Source: Novosphingobium nitrogenifigens DSM 19370 (GTDB lineage: Bacteria > Pseudomonadota > Alphaproteobacteria > Sphingomonadales > Sphingomonadaceae). Taken from it: DNA of 64,000 nucleotides. The translations under genes were made by a program, and so were the position numbers. Below the pieces are notes generated by a model that was not told where the DNA came from, ran no database searches, and saw nothing but the letters and a program-made list of their open reading frames with translations. This document shows positions 21,595 to 27,511 of this stretch, piece by piece (positions within the stretch are counted from its first letter, which is position 1; each line of letters starts with the position of its first letter). The DNA lies in the NCBI RefSeq assembly GCF_000192575.1, contig NZ_GL876934.1, positions 315,197-379,196 on the forward strand, written 5' to 3'.

Positions 21595-22317
21595 TCAGAT
21601 ATCCTTCCTGACGGTGGTCTGCGTGCCCTCGCCGGCCAGCACCCTTGCCAGGTTGCCCTTCTCCCGGATCGAGAACACGACGATGGGAATATTGTTGTCG
21701 CGGCACAGCGCGACGGCCGAAGCATCCATGACTTTCAGGTTGTCGGCGAGCACAGTGTCGTAATCGATCACGTCATAGCGGCGCGCGGCGGGATCCTGCT
21801 TGGGATCGGCGTTGTAGACGCCGTCGACACTGGTCCCCTTGAGCAGCGCGTCGCACTGCATTTCGGCCGCACGCAAAGCCGCGCCGGAATCGGTCGTGAA
21901 ATAGGGAGCCCCGACCCCTGCGGCGAAGATCACCACGCGCCCCTTTTCAAGGTGGCGTTCGGCGCGGCGACGGATGACCGGCTCGCACACCGCGTCCATC
22001 TGTACCGCCGACTGCACGCGGGTATCGACCCCCAGCTTTTCCAGCGCCGACTGCATGGCAAGAGCGTTCATCACGGTCGCCAGCATGCCCATGTAATCGG
22101 CCTGCGCACGGTCCATGCCCTTGGCAGCGCCTGCCATGCCACGGAAAATGTTGCCGCCGCCGATGACGAGGCACAGTTCAAGGCCGGTATCCTTGGCTGC
22201 CTTCACTTCAGCAGCAAGACTGGCGACGAAATCGGTATCGATCCCGAACGGCTGATTGCCCATCAGCACCTCGCCCGAAAGCTTGAGGAGAATGCGCTTG
22301 AACTTGGGCAGGGTCAT
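21595..22317 (-). CDS. pyrH: UMP kinase
   Basis: A 240-aa amino-acid-kinase-fold enzyme phosphorylating UMP to UDP, the first step from UMP to all pyrimidine triphosphates. It opens [20 protein letters not shown], with GGGNIFRG near residue 60 and a C-terminal [11 protein letters not shown]. The ATG at 22317 gives the family N-terminus; the longer in-frame ORF adds 54 unrelated residues. Confidence 0.96.
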
Positions 22318-22500
22318 GGGATGTCCGGTCTCGTTTTTATGGCCGCTTCGGCGCGCCCTTATACGCACAGGGTTTCCCCTGCCAAGGGTGCGACACGGGA
22401 TTTCGGACGCAATTATCCCCGCGCCACCCTGCCGGACAAGCCGAACGGGCACGCGGGGATCAATTGCCGGACGCCGCAAGCGACGCCACGATCCTGTTTC

Positions 22501-23427
22501 TTACTTCAGACCGGCAGCAGCAGCCACTTCGGCCGCGAAGTCGGTTTCTTCCTTCTCGATGCCTTCACCGAGCTGGAAGCGGACATAGTCAACCAGCGCG
22601 ATCTTGGTGCCGGCAGCCTTGCCGGCCGCTTCGACGACCTGAGCGATCGGGGTCTTGTTGTCCATGACGAACAGCTGCGACAGCAGTGCGTTTTCCTTGG
22701 CGTACTTGGCCACCGCGCCATCGACCATCTTGGCCTGGACTTCGGCGGGCTTGCCGCTTTCGGCAGCCTTTTCCGCAGCGATCTTGCGTTCGCGCGCGAT
22801 CAGTTCGGCGTCGAGTTCGTCGGCGGTCAGCGCCAGCGGGAACGCAGCGGCGATGTGCATCGCGATCTGCTTGCCCAGCGGTTCGAGCACGTCGGCACCG
22901 GCTTCGGATTCGAGCGCCACGAGCACGCCGATCTTGCCGAGGTTCGGCGCAGCGGCATTGTGCATGTAGGGCACGACGAGACCGTTGGTCACCGCAACGT
23001 GCTTCAGGCGACGCAGCTGCTGGTTTTCACCGATGGTCGCGACGTTGTTGGTCAGCTTGTCGGCAACGGTGCCGCCCTCGGGATAAGCAGCAGCCTTGAG
23101 CGCTTCGATGTCGGCCGAAGCCGTTTCGAGAGCGACCTGGGTCGCATTGCGCACGAAGTCCTGGAACTGTTCGTTCTTCGCAACGAAGTCGGTTTCCGAA
23201 TTGACTTCGACAGCAACGCCCTTGGTGCCGGCGACGGCAACGCCAACCAGACCTTCGGCAGCGGTGCGGCTCGACTTCTTGGCAGCGGCGGCAAGACCCT
23301 TGGCGCGCAGCGCGTCGACGGCGGCTTCGAAGTCGCCACCGGTTTCGTCGAGGGCCTTCTTGCAGTCCATCATGCCGGCGCCGGTGCGCTCGCGCAGGTT
23401 CTTCACGTCAGCGGCGGTATAGGCCAT
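22501..23427 (-). CDS. tsf: Elongation factor Ts
   Basis: A 308-aa EF-Ts, the nucleotide exchange factor for EF-Tu. The N-terminal UBA-like domain includes [18 protein letters not shown] and the core includes [13 protein letters not shown], both family signatures. It lies 183 nt upstream of pyrH and 128 nt after rpsB, with strong hairpins in the rpsB-tsf gap. Confidence 0.97.
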
Positions 23428-23459
23428 GGCGGTGATCCTTCATCGTTCTAAACAGGTGC

Positions 23460-23546
23460 GGCCGCGGCAACACGTGCCGCGGCCTCTATTCATGAAACAG
23501 GACAGTTCGGTGACGGAGCCGGCAAGGCACCCGGCACCGCTGTCAC
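23460..23546 (-). promoter_or_regulatory. Hairpins in the rpsB-tsf spacer
   Basis: A perfect 10-bp stem (23460-23469 with 23475-23484) with a 5-nt loop lies between rpsB and tsf. A second, looser structure closed by GTGAC/GTCAC spans 23510-23546. There is no T-run, so an attenuator, RNA-processing site or translational control element is as likely as a terminator. Confidence 0.5.
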
Positions 23547-23555
23547 TGTAACCAA

Positions 23556-24311
23556 TCAGCCTTCGATCGCTTCTTCGGCGACCGGCACGTCCATCGCGCC
23601 GAGGTCGACGCCCGCCGCGATGGCAGCGTCACGGCCGCCACGGGTGGCAGCAGCGGCAACCGCTTCACAGTAGAGACGGATGGCGCGGCTGGCGTCGTCG
23701 TTCGCCGGGATCGGGAACGCGATGCCTTCGGGCGAGACGTTCGAGTCGAGGATCGCAACGACCGGGATACCCAGCACGTTGGCTTCCTTGATCGCCAGTT
23801 CTTCCTTGTTCGCGTCGATCACGAACATCACGTCGGGGATACCGCCCATATCGCGGATACCGCCGAGCGACAGTTCGAGCTTGTCGCGTTCGCGGGTCAG
23901 CTGAAGAACTTCCTTCTTGGTGAGACCGGCAGTGTCACCCGAAAGCTGTTCTTCCAGCGCCTTGAAGCGCTTGATCGAACCCGAGATGGTCTTCCAGTTG
24001 GTGAGCATGCCGCCCAGCCAGCGGTGGTTGACGTAGTGCTGACCGGCAGCGCGCGCAGCCTGGGCGATCGGCTCCTGAGCCTGGCGCTTGGTGCCGACGA
24101 AGAGCACCTTGCCGCCGGCCTGGACAGTGGCCGAAATGAAGTCGAGCGCGCGAGCGAACAGCGGAACGGTCTGCGACAGGTCGAGGATGTGGATGCCGTT
24201 GCGAACGCCGAAGATGTACGGCTTCATGCGCGGGTTCCAGCGGTGGGTCTGGTGGCCAAAGTGCGCACCGGCCTCGATCAGCTGCTGCATGGTGACGACG
24301 GGAGCCGCCAT
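23556..24311 (-). CDS. rpsB: 30S ribosomal protein S2
   Basis: A 251-aa S2. It opens [20 protein letters not shown], followed by [12 protein letters not shown] and the internal motif [12 protein letters not shown], and has a short acidic tail. The ATG at 24311 fits the family; the ORF runs 73 codons further up into the leader. It is the first gene of the long minus-strand run down to fabZ and rpmE. Confidence 0.97.
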
Positions 24312-24717
24312 AGGATACGTCCTTTCCGGTTTGACCTCTGGGCGGAAGGAACCCGACGGATGGCGTGGGGCACCGGTATGTGGTCCGCCCATGTGGATTT
24401 GAAACATGGGTTCTGCCGGACGGGCCGATCGAAAAGCGGATGCCTGTTCGAATCGCCGTACGACGCACGGGCCCCTAGCCGCAGTTCGTCGCCAAATCCA
24501 TAAAAAATGCACATCGTCCGGAATCGACATGTGCCGTCAAGCAAGGCCTGTCGCCGTCGAGCAAAAGAATCGGGCAACCGAATCGCCACCCCGCCACGAC
24601 CCCCCAAAGGTGGAACGCAGAGACTAGGTAAAAGTCCATATTGGCAGAAAAATATCAGGGAAATTCCGCAAGTTAGCGCACCGCCTGGCAGCTGCAGGCT
24701 TTCCACTTGACGGAATG

Positions 24718-24732
24718 GAACAAAAGTGGAAC
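24718..24732 (+). promoter_or_regulatory. Candidate LexA (SOS) box
   Basis: GAAC-N7-GAAC with an A-rich spacer is the direct-repeat LexA operator form known in alphaproteobacteria (GTTC-N7-GTTC on the other strand). It lies 6 nt after a TTGACG -35-like box (24707-24712), so a bound repressor would cover the promoter. The 8 fixed bases would occur by chance about twice in 64 kb, so position is the main support. Confidence 0.5.
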
Positions 24733-24778
24733 AAATAGTCCATCAGCCGGATCGGGGAACATCACGCCGACCGGGACA

Positions 24779-24787
24779 TTATCCACA
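24779..24787 (+). promoter_or_regulatory. DnaA-box match TTATCCACA
   Basis: A perfect match to the bacterial DnaA consensus lies in the leader of the small plus-strand gene, followed closely by a partial copy (ttccaca, 24792-24798). A lone box does not make an origin; it could serve transcriptional control or be chance. Confidence 0.4.
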
Positions 24788-24839
24788 GGCCTTCCACAGG
24801 GTGTCAAGCCCGCGACGACGGCACACGATCGCGATTGCG

Positions 24840-25214
24840 ATGGTGCCCGCGGTTCGCTTGCGCCCCGATGGAAGCCCGATCGAAAGGGCGCGTGTCATGC
24901 TTGGATTGCTTGCTTCGCTCGTCTTCGTCACCGCCGGTTGCACCAGTGTGGCGGTCATTGGTTCCAGCGTGCGCGGCGCTCTGCCCGCCATCCGCAGGAT
25001 TGTCGCCGAACACGGCTCGATCGCGCAGGACCGTGTGTTCCTCTATACGCTGATCGAAACCCCGCGCCATGACGGAACCCCGCCTCCGCGCGTCGAAGCA
25101 CCGGCTGCGCGCCCGGAACACGCGTTCGCGCAGCCTGCTTTTGCCGGAGTCGCCCGTGGCGCGATCAAGCGTCGCCGACAGGCTTTCCCCGCACCGCTTC
25201 GCGCTGCCGCTTGA
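24840..25214 (+). CDS. Small predicted membrane protein downstream of an SOS-like box
   Basis: I do not recognise this 124-aa protein. A basic N-terminus (RLRPDGSPIERAR) precedes one hydrophobic segment (about residues 20-46, LGLLASLVFVTAG) and a short soluble region ending in a Pro/Ala/Arg-rich tail. Cys34 in TAGC is a weak lipobox. Codon use is GC-biased like real genes nearby. The start could instead be the ATG at 24897, which has AAGGG upstream and gives 105 aa. The 3' end overlaps the convergent pssA by 50 nt. The LexA-like and DnaA boxes upstream suggest a DNA-damage role, but this is inference. Confidence 0.5.
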   Translation: MVPAVRLRPDGSPIERARVMLGLLASLVFVTAGCTSVAVIGSSVRGALPAIRRIVAEHGSIAQDRVFLYTLIETPRHDGTPPPRVEAPAARPEHAFAQPAFAGVARGAIKRRRQAFPAPLRAAA

Positions 25215-26031
25215 CCCGGCTGTAACGGATCATGCCGACCGGCAGGAGCGCGAGATAGACCGCGCAAATGCCGACAAGCGTGAGCCAGGGTTCGGTCAGA
25301 AGCGCCGCGAAGACCAGCCCGAACAGGCCGATGAGTTCGAGCCGGACCGACCTGCGCGGACGCAGTGCCCCCCAACCGAGCGTGGCGGTGTTCGAGATCA
25401 TCAGGAACGCAACCATCACCGTCCACAACGCAACAGCGGGCGGATTGCGGAATTCGTCACGCCCGCTGGCGATCCACAGATAGATCGGCATCAACGCCAG
25501 CCCGGCCCCGACCGGAGCGGGCACGCCGGTCAGGAAGCCCGCGCGCTTTTGCGGCGGCTCGGCCATGTCGATCTGGGCATTGAAACGGGCAAGCCGCAAG
25601 GCGCAACATACCGCAAGAGCAAGTGCCGCGAACCAGCCGAAGCGCGGCATGACCTGCAACGACCAGAGATAGAGAACCAGAGCCGGAGCGACGCCGAACG
25701 AGATCGCGTCGGACAAGCTATCCAGTTCGGCACCGAACCGCGATTGCGCACGCATGGCCCGCGCAATGCGACCGTCGATGCCGTCGAGCATCCCGGCGAC
25801 GATCACCGCCTGCACGGCAAGGTGGAAATCCCCGCCGATGGCAAAGCGGATGCCGGTCAGGCCGCAACACAAGGCAGCCGACGTCACCGCATTGGGCACG
25901 AGCGCCCGCAAGGTCAGACCGCGCGGCAACCGCTTGCGCCCGAAATCATAGCCGGCATCGTGAGCCGGCGCTTCGAAAAGCGCATCGGCGTCATCCTCGT
26001 CCGGAACATCGGCCGGGCGATTTCCCGTCAC
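25165..26031 (-). CDS. pssA: CDP-diacylglycerol--serine O-phosphatidyltransferase
   Basis: PssA joins CDP-diacylglycerol and serine to make phosphatidylserine. The 288-aa membrane protein has the CDP-alcohol phosphotransferase motif DGx2ARx8Gx3Dx3D starting at DGIDGRIAR near residue 80. Its GTG start overlaps the psd stop (GTGA), so the pair is an operon for phosphatidylethanolamine. The 3' end overlaps a small plus-strand gene by 50 nt. Confidence 0.93.
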
Positions 26032-26777
26032 TGACGAATACCCTCGATCATCGGCGCCTGCCCGACTTCGGCAAGCACGGTTTCACCGGCAACGGTGCGC
26101 TGGCCGATCAGGACCTTGGGCTCGGTTCCTTCGGGCAGATAGACGTCGACGCGGCTGCCGAAGCGAATGAGGCCCACACGCTGCCCGGCCGCGACGATGT
26201 CGCCACCTTTGACGAAAGGAACGATCCGGCGGGCAATCAGGCCCGCGATCTGGGTGAAGCCCACCTTCACGCCATCGCCGCGCTCGACCAGAAAATGCTG
26301 GCGCTCGTTTTCCTCGCTCGCCTTGTCGAGGTCGGCATTGAGGAACTTGCCGGGGATATAGACGACTCGGCGAATCGTTCCCCCGATCGGGGCACGATTG
26401 ATGTGAACGTCGAACACCGACATGAAAATCGAGATCCGCGTGACCGGCGTCTCGCCGAGCCCGGTCGCGCCGGTGCCGTCGTTTGCCGACAACTCACGCG
26501 GGGGCGGCACTTTCTGGATCAGCGTGACGAGACCGTCCGCCGGGGCGACGATGAACGCATCATCGCGCGGCGTCACCCGTTCCGGATTCCGGAAAAAGGC
26601 CAGAATACCGACCGTCAATGCGGCAAGCGGCCAGGCTATGAAGCTCCAGCCGAAAAAACCGATGGCAAGAGCCGCAACGCCGGCAATCAGCGCGAACTTG
26701 CGGCCTTCGGGATGGATCGAGGGCCAGCTCCAGCCGGCGGTACCTCGTCCCCTGTTGTCTAGAATGTCTCCGGGCAT
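26028..26777 (-). CDS. psd: Phosphatidylserine decarboxylase
   Basis: A PSD of the short proenzyme type (249 aa from this start) with N-terminal hydrophobic helices and the self-cleavage site near the C-terminus in [12 protein letters not shown], where the Gly-Ser bond yields the pyruvoyl group. It converts phosphatidylserine to phosphatidylethanolamine. I chose the ATG at 26777 ([12 protein letters not shown]); an in-frame ATG at 26831 would add 18 residues and has no ribosome site. A possible promoter lies between the two. Confidence 0.91.
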
Positions 26778-26840
26778 GGCGGGGCTTCTAGCATTGTCGA
26801 CCAAAGTGGAAACCGGTTTTCGTGAATTCATCGGGGGACA

Positions 26841-26869
26841 CGGGTTCCCGGCTCATCACCGGGAACCCG
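26841..26869. terminator. Perfect 11-bp hairpin downstream of the lipoprotein gene
   Basis: 26841-26851 pairs exactly with 26859-26869 around a 7-nt loop, 7 nt past the lipoprotein stop on the minus strand. No T-run follows, so it may be a terminator or an RNA 3'-end stabiliser. Confidence 0.5.
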
Positions 26870-26876
26870 CACGACC

Positions 26877-27308
26877 TCATTTCTTCGCCTGAGCCTTCGC
26901 GGCGGCAGGCTTGGTCGGGCAATAGCCACGATGATGGTGCTTGCCTTTCCTGTGATGGCCCCGTGCATGTTCAAGCCTGTGCAGGCGGCTTTCCAGACGG
27001 GCGATACGCGCGTCGGCACTCTGCCCTGCGGCCAGCGCCTGTTGCGCGGTTCCGCCCGCGCCCTGCGCTGCATTGGCAGCGCCATCGGCGGTCCCTTGCG
27101 CCTTTTGCGCGGCGCCCATGGCAGCATCGGCAGAGCCTTGCGCCTTTTGCGCGGCGTCATATCCGTCGTTGGCGCGGGCAAGCGCCTGGTCGGCGGTGGC
27201 CTGCGCCCGCTTCACCGAGCCGGTCGTGGCACAACCGGCCAATGCCAGCGGGAGCACCGTCGCTGCGAGAATCAGTCTGGGATAAACCAGTGCGCGTGTC
27301 TGAAACAT
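26877..27308 (-). CDS. Ala-rich repeat lipoprotein
   Basis: A 143-aa outer-envelope lipoprotein. The signal peptide ends in lipobox LAGC with lipidated C26. Residues 30-95 are an Ala/Gln-rich coiled coil with a repeated unit of about 13 residues (AQKAQGSADAAMG, AQKAQGTADGAAN), and the tail is basic and His-rich (HHRKGKHHHRG) with a Lys/Ala end. The shape recalls Lpp-like or OprI-like coiled-coil lipoproteins, but length and His tail differ, so I leave it unnamed. The ATG at 27308 has AGGAAAGGA upstream. An inverted repeat at 27378-27397 may control it. Confidence 0.75.
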   Translation of the reverse strand: MFQTRALVYPRLILAATVLPLALAGCATTGSVKRAQATADQALARANDGYDAAQKAQGSADAAMGAAQKAQGTADGAANAAQGAGGTAQQALAAGQSADARIARLESRLHRLEHARGHHRKGKHHHRGYCPTKPAAAKAQAKK

Positions 27309-27377
27309 GATTGCGGTCCTTTCCTCATTACCCCCCGGTCGCCGCACCAAGGGCTATGAAGCGCCGCTTGTCCCAAA

Positions 27378-27397
27378 GATGAACAAATCGGTTCATC
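27378..27397. promoter_or_regulatory. 7-bp inverted repeat upstream of the lipoprotein gene
   Basis: GATGAAC-N6-GTTCATC is perfect over both 7-nt arms and lies 70 nt upstream of the lipoprotein ATG. It looks like an operator for a dimeric regulator; none is assignable. It is not the direct-repeat LexA form. Confidence 0.45.
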
Positions 27398-27511
27398 GCG
27401 CACCGGCAGGCAGGAACGCGACGAAGCGCACCGAGGCTACGTCATGACGCGGAGCACGCACCGCCCGACCATGCCTCGAAATGCCCTGCCCAAAATGGAG
27501 CCGCTCGCGAA

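Follow-up and report, generated by a model that had tools for sequence, protein, structure and literature searches.

We report a small membrane protein gene lying behind a LexA box in a 64,000-nucleotide stretch of Novosphingobium nitrogenifigens DSM 19370 (positions 315,197-379,196, forward strand, of NZ_GL876934.1, assembly GCF_000192575.1; hereafter the window). Comparison with relatives confirms that the box and its open reading frame (ORF) are a real feature, and it supports LexA control, a membrane helix, and a selected -AA C terminus. With modest confidence, we read the gene as coding for a LexA-repressed, fast-turnover division inhibitor of the Sphingomonadaceae, similar in kind to SidA and SosA. 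Inhibition of division would follow by analogy with those proteins; the divisome target, the protease, and the topology are likewise putative. The features of the locus are as follows.

24707-24712, plus strand: TTGACG, -35-like hexamer of the putative SOS promoter
24718-24732, plus strand: LexA box GAACAAAAGTGGAAC (GAAC-N7-GAAC), reverse complement of the alphaproteobacterial GTTC-N7-GTTC
24779-24798, plus strand: DnaA-box-like leader element TTATCCACA, from counts of TTWTCCACA in relatives against shuffles
24897-25214, plus strand: small membrane protein gene, 105 amino acids (aa), ATG to TGA, an ORF with a family in relatives
24900-25028, plus strand: codons of one long predicted helix, residues 2-44, hydrophobic at about residues 3-26 (AlphaFold2 model)
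25200-25214, plus strand: codons of the C-terminal Arg-Ala-Ala-Ala-stop, a candidate proteolysis tag (from -AA in relatives, pssA codons, and the tag of the transfer-messenger RNA, tmRNA)
25165-25214, both strands: 50-bp overlap between the 3' ends of the small ORF (plus) and pssA (minus), from ORF coordinates
23556-24311, minus strand: rpsB (ORF), divergent neighbor and synteny anchor
25165-26031, minus strand: presumed pssA (ORF), convergent neighbor
24778-24807, minus strand: sigma-70-like promoter TTGACA-18-GATAAT, directed toward rpsB from within the small gene's leader (sequence scan)

The small plus-strand gene thus sits between two minus-strand genes, rpsB and a neighbor that, by its sequence, is presumably pssA. 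Among named genomes, Novosphingobium has the closest rpsB (97%). The first-pass annotation had left the length of the protein at 105 to 124 aa. In L177, the closest relative at 59% identity, the longest ORF in the same frame begins at the ATG matching 24897; we therefore prefer this start and reject the one at 24840, which would give the 124-aa form. A 121-aa ORF beginning at 24707 is in a different frame from the gene.

Counts of the bare box are unremarkable. GAAC-N7-GAAC occurs twice in the window (2.09 expected) and at 135 sites genome-wide, against 108 for a reversed-pattern control; TTGA stands 2-16 bp ahead of a full box at two sites in the 4.18-Mb genome, this locus included, and the control pattern also gives two. 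None of these counts is evidence taken alone. The box at rpsB rises above chance because its position is conserved across the genomes of the family. We located rpsB in 149 family genomes (the query, 23556-24302, places the origin of our distances 9 bp inside rpsB) and read 110 of them, as 30 loci and 80 stretches, scanning 800 bp upstream of rpsB. A full box is present on the strand divergent from rpsB in 96 of the 110, compared with two on the opposite strand and eight for the reversed pattern, and TTGAC lies within 25 bp upstream of this box in 91. This conservation supports the first-pass placement of the box just inside a LexA-type TTGACG promoter. Within the genus, 24 of 29 genomes have the box at rpsB (loci read besides our own, from 56 genomes with a match). 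A named set of Novosphingobium, Sphingobium, Sphingomonas, and unnamed relatives has box and ORF in 70 of 80; it overlaps the other family genomes and is thus not independent, and two of its stretches are too short for the gene.

Conservation of box and ORF in relatives, proposed in the first-pass annotation as a check, is accordingly broad: among the 110 family genomes, 67 of the 75 genera have at least one genome with both. Beyond the family, the box at rpsB is absent from the 27 class loci (from 186 genomes with a match; two have short flanks) and the 16 order loci (one with only 736 bp) that we examined, which agrees with the earlier proposal of a lineage-specific gene. Altogether 139 regions were scanned within 800 bp, and 120 of them have the full box, with a GAACAAAAAGGGAACAT-like consensus and, in 66 cases, TTGA beginning 11 bp ahead of it. 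Among the 19 regions without it, the full box lies farther out in seven and a one-mismatch box precedes an ORF in four; in L048 the ORF stands without a box, and in L197 a one-mismatch box has no ORF of this kind. The remaining six (L044, L046, L049, L051, L111, and L115) have no module of box and ORF, and none of them shows pssA within its stretch.

Some genomes carry two copies of the small gene: L233 (about 395 and about 1340 bp upstream of rpsB), L203, L239, and L105. The rpsB-proximal copies are without a full box and end in NAA (L233, L203), SVA (L239), or EAA (L105). A further ORF of this type, with the end TAA, is found near rpsB in L190. The proximal copies and the L190 ORF are located away from pssA, or pssA is not seen.

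The same box also stands at SOS genes elsewhere in this genome. We hand-picked 14 box loci, mostly by their A/T-rich spacer, from 100 listed of the 135 sites, and seven of them have a recognizable SOS- or repair-type gene: lexA (52 bp past the box), a PcrA/UvrD-type helicase (9 bp), uvrA (25 bp), radA (31 bp), a repair radical SAM protein of TIGR03916 (17 bp), a SRAP gene (266 bp), and a PA0069-family protein, with the box at its start. In Sphingopyxis granuli, lexA, recA, radA, imuAB-dnaE2, and SRAP genes rise together, and in its strain TFA the increase of lexA and recA accompanies anoxia (PMC6472365). Judged by sequence, GAAC-N7-GAAC serves this genome as its LexA box, and SOS (LexA) control of the small gene is strongly supported. 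Six picked loci have no recognized SOS gene (L010, L019, L025, L291, L293, and L294), and an ORF at L030, at first taken for ImuA, has no family match. At L291 (G000:C2, ~1051150), the box lies 16 bp ahead of a 159-aa ORF that neither Pfam nor NCBIfam matches at the thresholds applied, possibly a further SOS gene.

With the 124-aa form as query, a homology search reaches E ≤ 0.001 in only five of 149 genomes of the family, our own included. The position of one of the other four matches (G137) fits a displaced box behind rpsB (L073), and three lie elsewhere with chance-like scores (E ~1e-4). Because direct matches are so few, we traced the family by synteny with rpsB. In each of the 120 box-bearing regions, an ORF coding for a single N-terminal membrane helix starts 55-181 bp past the box. 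Here and in the named set, the ORF following the box was selected for the highest hydrophobicity (17-residue mean of at least 1.6), so that the helix is partly chosen, and the C terminus played no part in the choice. Lengths range from 50 to 153 aa, 116 of the 120 falling between 65 and 105 aa, and the tail is basic. Lys and Arg are absent from residues 2-6 in all 120 proteins and average 3.1 in residues 23-42, so the N terminus is probably outside and the basic tail in the cytoplasm. With 74 aligned members, AlphaFold2 gives a single helix at residues 2-44 followed by an unstructured tail (block-mean predicted local distance difference test score 93-98 for residues 1-40 and 59-76 beyond; predicted template modeling score 0.42). 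In sequence and model, the module fits a small bitopic membrane protein under LexA.

The comparison with L177 outside the pssA overlap gives a nonsynonymous divergence (dN) of 0.255 and a synonymous divergence (dS) of 1.13, with a ratio of nonsynonymous to synonymous proportions (pN/pS) of 0.37; pN/pS is below 0.7 in all 24 close pairs, and by this measure the protein is under purifying selection. The first-pass description of an unrecognized single-helix protein holds: no Pfam or NCBIfam family fits the 74 members (three NCBIfam matches and one Pfam match, each in one member, E 0.001-0.009), and the best E in a PDB profile search is 0.12. The genome itself has one clear copy and a weak profile match, L297 (G000:C2:631004-631237, E 0.45). 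We rejected a lipoprotein reading, suggested by the likeness of ..TAGC.. to a lipobox, since the Cys is not family-wide and the N terminus is uncharged.

The C terminus is -AA in 107 of the 120 box-bearing regions, the window protein included, and in 64 of 70 in the named set, whereas the composition of the tails would give ~2.5%. The tail looks like a proteolysis tag, since the tmRNA tag of the same genome, ANDNEALALAA, ends in ALALAA. Ala-Ala-COO-, which matters for ssrA-type degradation (PMC7652416) and is a trait of ssrA-like ClpXP substrates, is thus present. However, in 118 of the 120 regions the small ORF runs into the 3' end of pssA, 115 times in one phase, and we therefore tested -AA by pssA codon choice and by members outside the overlap. 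In the shared phase, the middle base of the plus-strand codon faces the pssA wobble base. Opposite the penultimate Ala, the CGN codons of pssA are CGG in 91 of 99 cases, against 34% in the rest of pssA, and in 47 of 53 with one genome per genus (P = 5e-16; the codon P values here and below ignore relatedness). Opposite the fourth residue from the end, usually Arg, CGC makes up 74 of 98 (background 46%). Among nine members that do not reach into pssA, six end in -AA and five of these in -LAA: L045 has ALAA, L141 NLA, and seven related Sphingobium ORFs ALAA, FAA, MLAA, ILAA, MLAA, LTA, and VTA. The codon choice in pssA points to selection for the alanines of the small protein. Where the small gene stops, the pssA codon in relatives is the rare Arg codon AGG; in the window it is AAG.

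In the mechanism that we propose, LexA bound to GAAC-N7-GAAC just inside the -35 element would keep the gene off, and cleavage of LexA upon DNA damage would turn it on. The product would be a small protein of the inner membrane, inserted by a single N-terminal helix, with its uncharged N terminus outside and a basic, disordered tail probably in the cytoplasm. Within the membrane, this protein would most likely bind FtsW/FtsI/FtsN of the late divisome and stop septum synthesis, as SidA does in Caulobacter. Once LexA returns, the C-terminal -(A/V/L)AA could act as an ssrA-like tag for removal by ClpXP or FtsH; should the tail be outside, a Prc/CtpA-type protease could clear the protein instead.

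Several observations weigh against this proposal. The topology is predicted from charges alone, and past the helix conservation is poor (mean column identity 24% over the 74 aligned members), which is uncommon in a protein that has to fit a precise partner. At the third residue from the end, the facing pssA codons show a weak CGG bias (16 of 27, P = 0.007). All 71 Arg codons facing the last Ala are AGG (background 2.9%), a choice that the stop codon dictates in part. The pssA overlap could account for some of the conservation of the alanines. Ends other than -AA occur in 13 of the 120 regions and in three of the nine nonoverlapping members, and -AA ends alone are no proof of degradation.

Among known systems, the closest likeness is to SidA of Caulobacter crescentus, a 29-aa SOS-induced inner-membrane protein that acts on FtsW/FtsN (PMC4211646). 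Both are small inner-membrane proteins of Alphaproteobacteria, SOS-induced (in our case by prediction), behind the same type of LexA box, GTTC-N7-GTTC (PMC4211646, PMC12700426). In Caulobacter, cells lacking lexA no longer filament when sidA is lost as well (PMC12700426). Compared by description, the sphingomonad family is longer (mostly 65-105 aa), has a basic tail and the -AA end, and among the genomes sampled is seen only in Sphingomonadaceae. DidA (71 aa, FtsN) is similar in size and in its one transmembrane helix. The first-pass annotation had cited both Caulobacter inhibitors as SOS-induced; this stands for SidA, whereas DidA is SOS-independent and driven by DriD, in contrast to the gene described here with its LexA box (PMC4211646). 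SosA of Staphylococcus aureus and YneA of Bacillus subtilis are likewise small, bitopic, SOS-induced, and checked by proteolysis; CtpA removes YneA, and the same role has been proposed for it with SosA (PMC6851548, PMC13396833). In contrast to them, the tail of the sphingomonad protein is predicted to lie in the cytoplasm and shares its -AA terminus with the tmRNA tag. Several small SOS division inhibitors have been modeled on FtsW, with low confidence (PMC13396833).

SulA of the Enterobacteria, which blocks FtsZ polymerization and is degraded by Lon (PMC13396833), offers a looser parallel as an SOS-induced protein made short-lived by proteolysis. The earlier remark that sphingomonads lack an obvious SulA is borne out for this one genome, in which PF03846 has no match (an Escherichia coli control matched); its extension to sphingomonads at large is the wording of that annotation. 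Neither the 124-aa form nor the 74 aligned members match PF03846. Judged by titles and abstract openings among the matches listed, the open-licence literature on sphingomonad SOS or division inhibitors, alphaproteobacterial LexA regulons, LexA plus DnaA boxes, and ssrA-like ends of SOS inhibitors holds no description of the sphingomonad gene, subscription literature being mostly outside this scope; to that extent, the family is undescribed. Overall, the first-pass interpretation is partly supported, its division-inhibitor part being drawn by analogy.

The same features can be read in other ways. The protein could instead be a small SOS-regulated adaptor with no role in division, serving some other process at the membrane such as envelope stress, phospholipid synthesis alongside its neighbor PssA, or the work of a protease. 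This reading would account for pssA being the steadier neighbor: it is present in all 120 regions with box and ORF, and modules displaced to about 1 kb from rpsB mostly still abut it. The 3' overlap alone would, however, suffice to hold the pair in place. In L141, the end of pssA lies at a distance of 893 bp, and the stretch around the displaced L073 module shows no pssA. The Pfam and NCBIfam scans also give no domain tying the protein to lipids. We regard such an adaptor as unlikely. A membrane toxin of the TisB/DinQ kind, whose helix would depolarize the membrane and slow growth so that division stops secondarily, is likewise small, LexA-box-controlled, and built on a single hydrophobic helix. 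TisB has 29 aa. The sphingomonad protein is far longer and carries a basic tail and an -AA end under selection; in 67 of the 75 genera sampled it keeps a single syntenic position, unlike what we infer to be the usual scatter of toxin genes, and Rfam has no match up to E 1 in 22000-27500 of the window. A toxin of this kind seems to us distinctly improbable.

It is also conceivable that the transcript matters and not the protein, either as an SOS antisense RNA to the pssA 3' end or through interference with rpsB transcription, given the overlap and the promoter-like site facing rpsB within the leader in the window. Against this, dN is well under dS in the nonoverlapping part, the seven Sphingobium ORFs stop short of pssA, and the pssA codons seem shaped by the alanines of the protein; we give this explanation very little weight. 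A chance box before a spurious ORF would agree with the chance-level count of the bare motif in the window, but it is refuted by the conservation of the box across genera, in the family, genus, and named sets alike, and by purifying selection on the ORF, and we assign it next to no probability.

The leader between box and ORF holds one further conserved element. In the window, TTATCCACA is followed by a second TCCACA 14 bp on. TTWTCCACA, a candidate site that fits the DnaA-box consensus, occurs in this interval in 50 of the 120 regions (shuffles, 0.25) and in 38 of 70 in the named set (shuffles, 0.05); in 19 and 11 of these, respectively, a second TCCACA follows at a spacing of one helical turn. 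Its position is conserved, and so for the most part is its orientation in the 120 regions, with 50 forward and five reverse. We had initially taken TTATCCACA for the -10 element of an rpsB promoter; this reading is weakened because the element follows the box where the module is displaced from rpsB, keeping 51-52 bp from it in nine of 13 such loci (some being the same species twice), and a -10 of a promoter on the other strand is possible. Genome-wide, TTATCCACA occurs five times and TTWTCCACA 35 times, against 23 for a control pattern; the other four TTATCCACA sites show no evident origin, judged by ORFs and box counts. A strict scan for the rpsB-facing promoter-like site finds it in nine of 120 regions, compared with 15 of 120 after shuffling. 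TTGACA-18-GATAAT is common to L177, L103, and L108, and most relatives are without it by the strict scan.

A bolder version of our proposal is a family-wide SOS checkpoint with its own tmRNA-type tag, wired both to LexA through the box and to DnaA, and hence to replication initiation, through TTWTCCACA. We consider this unlikely. If the dual wiring were true, division arrest would be set by damage together with replication state and would have a built-in release timer. The SidA/SosA-like division inhibitor, if real, would provide an SOS division brake for a large group of environmental bacteria; it would add another, apparently unrelated, checkpoint built on a small membrane protein, with its off-switch, the ssrA-like end, encoded in the protein itself.
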